Shown piece after piece: positions 27,101-51,033 of a stretch of DNA of 64,000 nucleotides. Source of the stretch: Nitrospirota bacterium. GTDB taxonomy: Bacteria; Nitrospirota; Nitrospiria; Nitrospirales; Nitrospiraceae. Below the pieces are notes generated by a model, which saw only the letters and a program-made list of their open reading frames with translations, was not told the origin of the DNA and did no database searches. The stretch lies in contig JAUXQT010000053.1 in the NCBI GenBank assembly GCA_030682135.1, positions 1 to 64,000 of the forward strand, read 5' to 3'. Numbering within the stretch: the stretch's first letter is position 1; each line of letters starts with the position of its first letter. The translations under genes and the position numbers were made by a program.

Positions 27101-27487
27101 CTACTCAGAATGTGTCAGAGTCGAGCGTAAGAAGTGACGGAGCCGGTTGCCTTCCCGAAGGCCCATGTCCATGATCTCGACTCCAAACTGACGGCCTGAG
27201 GTCCAGGCAACTTTTGTCTCCATTACGAACAGCGGGTCTTTTCCGTCGGGGAGATAGAGGAACAGTGCCAGTTCCATCCCCGGCATGACGACGGTGTTTC
27301 CGCGAATACCGAGTCCAAGATGTGAAAGATCCGTGACCCTGCCATCGCCCATGAGGATCTCGCCTGAACGGTTTTGGGCCGAGTACATCAAGCTGAACTC
27401 CAGCGGAGCTCGTGAACGTTCTCTCCTATGGGCTGTTTCCACCGGAGACTGAAGCCTACGCTCAGATACGACTGATGTGTGCGTCAT
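27101..27487 (-). CDS. PilZ-domain protein (array member 3)
   Basis: 128 residues. HRRERSRAPLEF and DLSHLGLGIRGN give the PilZ motifs, followed by a beta-barrel pattern (MELALFLYLP, FVMETKVAWTSG). More similar in layout to the next array member upstream (27516) than to the others, suggesting tandem duplication. Confidence 0.8.
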   Translation of the reverse strand: MTHTSVVSERRLQSPVETAHRRERSRAPLEFSLMYSAQNRSGEILMGDGRVTDLSHLGLGIRGNTVVMPGMELALFLYLPDGKDPLFVMETKVAWTSGRQFGVEIMDMGLREGNRLRHFLRSTLTHSE

Positions 27488-46876: not shown

Positions 46877-48394
46877 ATGGCGCGAGATCCTATCACAGTC
46901 ATGCAGTTGCTCGCAGCCCTCCATGGGCAGGTCGAGATCCAGGAGCAGCGAGGCGATGTGAATCGTCCGGTGCATGGAATCGCGGACGATTCGCGGGCCG
47001 TGACTAGTGGGAGCCTTTTTGTTGCCGTCAAGGGTGAGCGCGTCGATGGGCACGATTTTGTCGAGCAGGCGATCAAGGCCGGAGCTGGTGCGGTAATTGC
47101 ACAGGCGACCGTGGCATCCGGGTCGGTGCCGTTCGTGCGGGTGGCTGATTCGCGCAAGGCGCTCGGTCTTCTCGGCAGCCGGTTTTATGGCGATCCCTCC
47201 GCCCGTCTGAAGATGATCGGCGTGACCGGTACGAACGGGAAGACGACGACCACCTACATTTGCAAATCGCTTCTGGAGGGGATCGGTCGACGGGTGGGGT
47301 TGATCGGCACGGTGGGGTATCAGATCGGGCAGGATATATTTCCTGCCTCTCACACAACGCCTGGCGCGCTCGACCTGCAGCAGTTGTTGGCGAAAATGGT
47401 CGAGGCTGGGCTCAATGCCGCAGTCATGGAAGTGTCGTCCCATGCCCTCGCGCTGGACCGGACCTCGGGCTGCGAGTATGACGTGGCGGTCTTCACGAAC
47501 CTGACGCAGGATCACCTCGATTTTCATCATACGATGGACGAGTACTATGAGGCGAAGTTGCGACTGTTCACGGGATTGGCCGGGGGGCAGAAAGCCGGGA
47601 AGCGCGCTATCGTGAATTTGGACGATCCTCGTGGAAAGGCGATCCGGGCGGCCTGCCCCGTGCCGGTCTGGGGTTATGCCATTCAGAACCAGGCCGATCT
47701 CAAGGCGGAACGAGTGCGTCTCTCGCTTGCCGGGACGACCTTCACTGCGGCCACTCCGAGCGGAACGTTCACGGTCGAAAGCCGGTTGGTCGGAGAGCAC
47801 AACGTCTACAACTTGCTGGCGGCGATCGGCGTAGCGTTGCACGACGGGGCCACGATCGATCAGATCCGCGAGGCGACGGCGCATATCGCCAACGTCCCGG
47901 GACGATTCGAGCGGGTCTCTTCCGGGCAAGACTTTACCGTCGTCGTCGACTATGCCCATACGGACGATGCGCTCGTTCGGCTGCTCACGGCCGCGCAGGC
48001 CTTGAAGACCGATCGGATCATTACGGTGTTCGGCTGTGGCGGTGATCGGGACCGGGGGAAGCGGCCCAAGATGGGGCGTGCCGCCGTGGAATACAGCGAT
48101 GTGGTGGTGCTGACGTCCGATAACCCTCGAACCGAAGACCCGATGGCGATCCTCCGCGAAGTCGAGGTCGGCGTGCGTGAGGCGCTCGTGCACCGTAGCC
48201 ACGTGCAATATCGCTTGGTGCCAGACCGCCGCGAGGCGATCGGCGCAGCCATTCGTGAGGCGCATCGTGGCGACATGGTGCTCATTGCCGGTAAGGGGCA
48301 CGAAGACTATCAAATCGTCGGCACCAAGAAGTTTCATTTTGACGATCGTGAGGTGGCTCGCGAGGCGATTCAGCAATTGCAGGATTGCGCGTGA
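46877..48394 (+). CDS. murE: UDP-MurNAc-tripeptide synthetase MurE (meso-DAP type)
   Basis: 505 residues. GVTGTNGKTTTTYI is the ATP loop; YDVAVFTNLTQDHLDFHHTM is the central domain; TSDNPRTEDP carries the DNPR motif that goes with meso-diaminopimelate. It adds the third stem residue to the cell-wall precursor. Confidence 0.95.
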   Translation: MARDPITVMQLLAALHGQVEIQEQRGDVNRPVHGIADDSRAVTSGSLFVAVKGERVDGHDFVEQAIKAGAGAVIAQATVASGSVPFVRVADSRKALGLLGSRFYGDPSARLKMIGVTGTNGKTTTTYICKSLLEGIGRRVGLIGTVGYQIGQDIFPASHTTPGALDLQQLLAKMVEAGLNAAVMEVSSHALALDRTSGCEYDVAVFTNLTQDHLDFHHTMDEYYEAKLRLFTGLAGGQKAGKRAIVNLDDPRGKAIRAACPVPVWGYAIQNQADLKAERVRLSLAGTTFTAATPSGTFTVESRLVGEHNVYNLLAAIGVALHDGATIDQIREATAHIANVPGRFERVSSGQDFTVVVDYAHTDDALVRLLTAAQALKTDRIITVFGCGGDRDRGKRPKMGRAAVEYSDVVVLTSDNPRTEDPMAILREVEVGVREALVHRSHVQYRLVPDRREAIGAAIREAHRGDMVLIAGKGHEDYQIVGTKKFHFDDREVAREAIQQLQDCA

Positions 48395-48435: not shown

Positions 48436-49890
48436 ATGGGACTCTTTACGGTCGAGGAATTACGAGAAGTCATCAGCGTGAAAGTCCTTGCGGGGCAGGA
48501 CTCGTCATCGGGCAAGCGTCCGATCAGACAGATTACGACGGATTCGCGATCCATTCGCCGCGGCGATCTCTTTGTCGCGCTCAGAGGCGAGCAATTCGAC
48601 GGCCATGATTTTGTGCCGGCGGTTCTTGCGCAAGGCGCAGCCGGAGCGATCGTGCACGATGAATATCGCCTCCCGCCAAGTTCTGCAGCGGTTCGGCGGA
48701 TCGAGGGACGGCCCGCGCCGTTTCTCTTCGGCGTGCGCGATCCGCTGTTTGCCTACCAGCAGTTGGCGACGCATCATCGCAGCCGGTTCAATATTCCCGT
48801 CGTGGCGGTGACTGGAAGCAACGGCAAGACGACGACGAAAGAGATGGTGGCGGCGGTCTTGGCGCAACGGTGGCCGGTGTTGTAGACCGAGGGGAACTTC
48901 AATAATCGGATCGGGGTGCCCTTTACCCTGTTTCGTCTCACCTCTCGCCATCAAGCGGCTGTGATTGAGATGGGGGTGGATCAGCAGGGGCAGACGACCA
49001 GGCTCTGTGAAATCGTCAGGCCCACGATCGGACTCATCACCAATATCGGCCCCGATCATCTCGAGTTCTTTGGCAGCATGGAAGGATCGGCGCAGGCTAA
49101 GGCGGAACTGTTGGATCAGCTTCCTTCCGATGGCACGGCGATTTTGAACGCCGACGACCCCTACTTCGACTATCTCGCGTCGCGGGCGCAATGCCGAGTC
49201 GTGTCGTTCGGATTTTCGGAGATGGCCGATGTCCGCGCGAGCGGGGTCACGTCCGATGTGCGCCAGGGCACGACCTTTCGCTTGCACCTCCCTGGAAAGA
49301 GCCGTCCCGTCACTGCGCGAATCAAGGTGCATGGAACGCACAACGTGACCAATGCGCTCGCTGCCGCTGCGGTGGGTGCGGCGTTGAACCTGTCCGGTTC
49401 GATGATTGTCCAGGGGCTCGGTCGATTCCGTCCTGCCGCGATGCGATCGCAGGTGGTGACCCATCATGGCGTCCATATTATCAACGATTGCTACAATGCC
49501 AACCCTGCTTCGATGAAAGCCGCACTTCAATTGCTGGCACAGTGGAGCCCGGCGCGTGAACGGATTGCCGTGCTGGGAGACATGCTCGAACTCGGATCTG
49601 AGACAGGCCAGATGCATCGGGAAGTTGGACAGTTTCTTGCCACGCAGGGGCTGTCGCGGTTGATCGTCTGTGGCCCCTTGGGCCGGAAGATCGCGGATGG
49701 GGCCAGGCAGGGAGGGATGGCAGGTTCGCAGATCGATGAAGTCGCCGATGCAGGAGCCGCTGCCGATCTCCTCAAGAAGATCGTGCGGCAGGGCGATGTG
49801 GTGTTAGTGAAGGCCTCCCGAGGCATGAAAATGGAGCAGGTGGTGCAGGTATTGACGGGGATGAGGGCGGTTATCAAGCAGGCGTCGTAA
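48436..49890 (+). pseudogene. murF: murF, D-Ala-D-Ala ligase, interrupted by an in-frame TAG
   Basis: Start chosen at ATG 48436 (GAGG 8 bases upstream); a GTG at 48391 overlaps the murE stop. The frame gives MGLFTVEELREVIS and the ATP loop VTGSNGKTTTKEMVAAVL, then TAG at 48883-48885 (codon 150), and continues in the same frame with TEGNFNNRIGVPFTLFRL and a complete central and C-terminal part to 49890. Family members have Lys or another residue at that point, so AAG to TAG is a one-base change. The enzyme joins D-Ala-D-Ala to UDP-MurNAc-tripeptide and is essential. A base-calling or assembly error is the simplest explanation; readthrough or a second copy are alternatives. Confidence 0.85.
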
Positions 49891-49956: not shown

Positions 49957-51033
49957 ATGCTCTATAACTGGCTGTATCCGCTTCATACGGACTATTCGTT
50001 CCTGAACGTGTTTCGTTATCTGAGCTTCCGGATCATCTATGCGGCCGTGACCGCGTTCTTGATCGCCTTTGTGCTGGCTCCCTGGTTGATCAGGAAGCTA
50101 CAGGAAATTAAGCTCGGTCAGCAGATCCGCAACGATGGTCCCAAGAGTCACCTGGCGAAGAGCGGGACACCCACGATGGGCGGGATTCTTATCCTCTTCG
50201 CGGTGGTTCTCTCAACGCTCTTGTGGGCGGATATTGCGAAGCCCTACGTCTGGCTGGTGCTCGCCGCCACGCTGGGGTTCGGGGCGATCGGATTTGCCGA
50301 CGACTACCTCAAGTTCATCAAGTCCCAATCGAAGGGGCTGTCGGCGGGGCAGAAGTTCACCGCGCAAGTGGCGGTGGCCTTGGGGATTGCGTTGGTCCTC
50401 TATTTTTTGCCGGGCTATACCACCAAGCTCAGCATTCCATTTTTCAAAAATGTCGTGCCGGATCTCGGCTGGCTCTATATCGGCTTTGCCGTGTTGGTCA
50501 TTGTCGGGAGTTCCAATGCGGTCAATCTGACCGATGGTCTCGATGGGCTCGCGATCGGGCCCGTCATGATTGCGGCGCTGGCCTATACGATCGTGGCCTA
50601 TGTCGCCGGCCATCGACTGATGTCGGACTATCTGCTTATTCAGCACATCGAAGGGGCCGGCGAACTGGCGGTCTTTACCGCGTCGATCCTGGGGGCGAGT
50701 CTGGGATTCCTCTGGTTCAATACCTACCCGGCTACCGTGTTCATGGGGGATGTCGGGTCGCTTCCGCTGGGAGCGGCGCTGGGCACGGTCGCAGTGATCA
50801 GCAAGCACGAATTGCTGCTCCTCATGGTCGGCGGCGTGTTCGTGATCGAAGCGGTCTCGGTGATTTTCCAGGTCATCTCGTTCAAGTCGCGCGGGAAACG
50901 CATTTTTCTCATGGCGCCTATCCATCATCACTTTGAGATGAAAGGGTGGGAGGAGCCTAAGGTCGTGGTGCGTTTGTGGATCATCGCCATCCTGTTGGCC
51001 CTATTGAGCCTGAGCACCTTGAAACTCCGGTGA
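49957..51033 (+). CDS. mraY: Phospho-MurNAc-pentapeptide translocase MraY
   Basis: 358 residues, about ten membrane spans. Seen: [27 protein letters not shown] (catalytic Asp pair), [12 protein letters not shown] and [12 protein letters not shown]. It loads the MurNAc-pentapeptide onto undecaprenyl phosphate to form lipid I. Confidence 0.96.

Follow-up and report, generated by a model that had tools for sequence, protein, structure and literature searches.

MurF (UDP-N-acetylmuramoyl-tripeptide--D-alanyl-D-alanine ligase; family TIGR01143, with the solved structures 1gg4, 4cvk and 2am1) is essential for peptidoglycan, and a bacterium with a single murF should not survive losing it. The murF gene described here resembles the other members of this family in its full-length match, which runs straight through a TAG codon, in its ATP loop and NFNN block, and in its position within the dcw cluster, but it differs from them by one in-frame TAG at codon 150. 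Two other described phenomena are close to this case. The first is the single-base nonsense error of draft and metagenome-assembled genomes, which shares with it an isolated substitution, absent from close relatives, in an otherwise intact, constrained and single-copy gene, even though the contig around this murF does not have a raised error rate. The second is amber recoding, through a suppressor tRNA-CUA or pyrrolysine, which shares with it an in-frame TAG at a lysine position; however, in the source genome neither a CUA tRNA nor PylS was found, RF1 is intact, and TAG is a normal stop elsewhere. A search of the literature returned nothing relevant.

The window, that is, the whole stretch of 64,000 nucleotides that was analysed, corresponds to positions 1-64000 of contig C81 in a Nitrospira draft genome of 3,749,092 bases and 113 contigs, with a completeness of 99.96% and a contamination of 2.58%. 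The named relatives matched by the MurF protein are Nitrospira genomes, mostly metagenome-assembled, and the source assembly itself is probably metagenome-derived. On the forward strand, murF spans positions 48436-49890, from the ATG at 48436 to the TAA at 49888-49890, with the TAG at 48883-48885 in the same frame (ccg gtg ttg TAG acc gag ggg aac ttc aat aat). The piece upstream of the TAG (48436-48882, 149 aa) comprises the MurF N-terminal domain and the ATP loop GSNGKTTT, whereas the downstream piece (48886-49887, 334 codons) begins with TEGNFNN. When the TAG is translated as lysine, a single protein of 484 aa results, which matches TIGR01143 over positions 1-418 of 418 with 440.8 bits (cut-off, 288.6); taken apart, the pieces cover positions 1-101 and 105-418, with no gap of substance between them. 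Thus, the amber stop that had been noticed from the sequence alone is present as described, and the frames on either side of it do join as one MurF, belonging to the family by its profile match and departing from it only in that the full-length frame is interrupted at codon 150. The T at 48883 lies outside any homopolymer and, apart from the TAG, the gene is normal in all respects. The neighbouring dcw genes, including murE upstream (46877-48394, forward strand) and mraY downstream (49957-51033, forward strand), are intact as had been claimed, with no internal stop in any of the ten other conserved genes compared (yajQ, rsmH, ftsI, murE, mraY, murD, ftsW, murC, murB, and ddl).

This arrangement of the frame bears on whether MurF could be made as two chains, with termination at the TAG and a restart at GTG 48916, the first candidate, to give pieces that would assemble into a working enzyme. 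The downstream frame is indeed long and open, encoding 324 aa from that GTG. However, such a restart lies past TEGNFNN, and the motif, which is conserved in 49 of 49 sequences apart from two positions where E/D and F/L/Y replace each other, would be lost; moreover, the chain would be cut within the central domain of the Mur ligases, after the ATP loop and before TEGNFNN, and a split gene occurs in none of the nearby relatives checked. We regard this as the least credible of the explanations considered.

The comparison with relatives is the main source of evidence on the TAG itself. Among 49 aligned Nitrospira murF sequences, some of which represent the same genome obtained by two routes, codon 150 is AAG in 46 and AAA in two, both encoding lysine, and TAG in the source genome alone, which bears out the single-base distance from AAG noted earlier. 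The five nearest genes, at 98-99% protein identity, have no stop and all carry AAG at this codon. When 30 distinct murF sequences from the genus are compared, the source genome has a single private base in the gene, the T at 48883. Over the wider order, a strong murF match was obtained in 221 of 236 genomes, with an internal stop in the source genome alone among the matches listed; stops initially flagged in the murF of three genomes (G037, G049, and G055) proved not to interrupt the gene once the DNA was aligned. Mismatches to the nearest relative number 3, 2 and 52 at codon positions 1, 2 and 3, respectively, a distribution which indicates that murF is under strong purifying selection, and as far as can be read from its sequence the gene has no sign of decay, second lesion or relaxed constraint. 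The residue at position 150 is not lysine in the solved MurF proteins of Escherichia coli and Pseudomonas aeruginosa, so the harm would come from the stop and not from the loss of a side chain.

Other irregularities were seen in the relatives. In another Nitrospira draft, G029, the murF match (L212, G029:C228, 2672-3562) is in two pieces, with residues 186-257 absent between them and overlapping pieces in another alignment; a deletion or local misassembly close to a contig end would seem to account for the break. Likewise, contig C23 of the relative G009 (L185 and L186) has apparent frame breaks in two genes, its murD and the one corresponding to a 373-aa frame of C81. Judging from G009, Nitrospira drafts may contain gene-breaking errors or lesions.

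A second murF, which the sequence-only reading had advised looking for, was not found across the draft genome, where the gene occurs once. On contig C81, the remaining strong matches to Mur ligases are MurE, MurC and MurD; in the genome as a whole, the matches were dismissed as candidates, being these same three enzymes and, on C21 and C25, two distant members of the family. This weighs on the explanation that the TAG would be a real nonsense mutation, present without compensation in some or the majority of the cells sampled, such as those of a dying lineage, a variant of an enrichment culture or a mixture of strains, and from there carried into the consensus. Such a mutation would look like what is seen, namely a single changed base on a contig that is clean elsewhere, and a strain mixture is possible given that the draft comprises 113 contigs and has a contamination of 2.58%. 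However, the lesion would affect the only murF, whose loss should not be survivable, and it would have to sit in a gene without a second lesion or relaxed constraint. This explanation is therefore considered unlikely, though less so than the others set against the preferred one.

A full-length MurF would also result if a suppressor tRNA or programmed read-through inserted lysine, or some other residue, at the TAG. The frame stays open past the TAG, and the residues found at position 150 in E. coli and P. aeruginosa suggest that an amino acid other than lysine might be tolerated. None of the 41 tRNAs above the family cut-off, all of them typed, has a CUA anticodon, so that the search for an amber suppressor, also advised earlier, came back empty for this draft genome, which may lack a few tRNAs. 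Indeed, tRNA-Ile(GAT), tRNA-Ala(TGC) and tRNA-Lys(TTT), all expected, are missing from the draft, and a suppressor could sit in a similar gap; the genes for Ile-GAT and Ala-TGC often belong to rRNA operons, a part of the genome that draft assemblies commonly miss. During this tRNA survey, ARAGORN also reported an odd tmRNA tag, AEDETILG, at L165 (G000:C36:11650-12000), a stretch without the 5' end of a gene whose full length is 350 bases (C36:11770-12119), and this truncation probably explains the tag.

The rest of the translation machinery also speaks against decoding of the TAG. RF1, with its established PVT motif, and RF2 are both intact, and the lost or altered RF1 of recoded genomes was not observed. 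No PylS exceeds the family cut-off in the genome, the best match scoring 22.4 bits against a cut-off of 178; it adjoins prfB and is probably a lysyl-tRNA synthetase. Of 290 long reading frames, 82 end in TAG, among them frames at real gene boundaries such as ccmE/ccmF and prmC/murA, and this codon is not depleted as a terminator. Recoding of TAG throughout the genome was discarded as well, the top coding-TAG-coding sites on other contigs being boundaries of adjacent genes, such as ccmE/ccmF. The RNA 3' of the murF TAG is no more stably folded than its shuffled counterparts (z -0.03), and TAG occupies this site in none of the relatives compared. Sense decoding of the murF TAG thus seems very improbable, and the same holds for the specific case of a TAG fixed in the species and decoded through efficient read-through or by a tRNA that the draft lacks.

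The error rate of the surrounding DNA was compared with that of two relatives. In eleven conserved genes including murF, changes private to the source genome amount to 45, 10 and 234 at codon positions 1, 2 and 3, versus 26, 14 and 211 in one relative and 62, 30 and 360 in the other, and among these genes only murF has an internal stop. By these counts, the contig around murF does not appear noticeably error-prone. When about 88 reading frames of C81 were compared with those of G017, and others with those of G011, G009, G021 and G002, murF was the one clear nonsense interruption; most other flagged interruptions were rejected as antisense shadow frames or sites upstream of the true start, leaving ambiguous sites at 27117, 19410 and 72566, the last one near a C-terminus. 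In a dicodon scan of 572,831 bases, the murF TAG ranked second, and the other high-ranking sites inspected turned out to be junctions of adjacent genes (e.g., ccmE/ccmF) or antisense frames. Altogether, the approximately 573 kb surveyed, roughly 15% of the genome, yielded no further gene that a stop clearly splits.

We consider that the TAG is probably a single-base artefact of assembly or sequencing in the consensus of the draft genome. According to this proposal, an A would have been misread or miscalled as T at position 48883, and the living population would carry an ordinary, single-copy and functional murF with lysine at residue 150. It is difficult to see how a population could live with a fixed nonsense codon in its only murF when no suppressor was found and the gene is otherwise undecayed. 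Two observations speak against an error: the private-change counts of the surrounding contig at codon positions 1 and 2 are similar to those of the two relatives, and a lone A-to-T change, here outside any homopolymer, is not a typical error of the indel type. On balance, a consensus error is the most likely explanation, followed by a variant that is not fixed. The initial view of one MurF hit by a single base change from AAG is upheld by the relatives, the integrity of the gene and the lack of a second murF, whereas the suppressor tRNA and the second murF that it had left room for were not found in the draft genome. That view is thus supported in part, and the error that it had named as its refutation is now the favoured outcome, ahead of a variant that is not fixed.

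Most likely, then, the TAG in murF does not represent new biology, but a sequence error or a short-lived variant. It would be surprising if the TAG proved real and fixed, since a bacterium whose translation terminates normally would then depend on amber read-through for an essential cell-wall enzyme. The case stands mainly as a warning that a single wrong-looking base in a draft assembly can be enough for an essential gene to appear inactivated and be annotated as a pseudogene.
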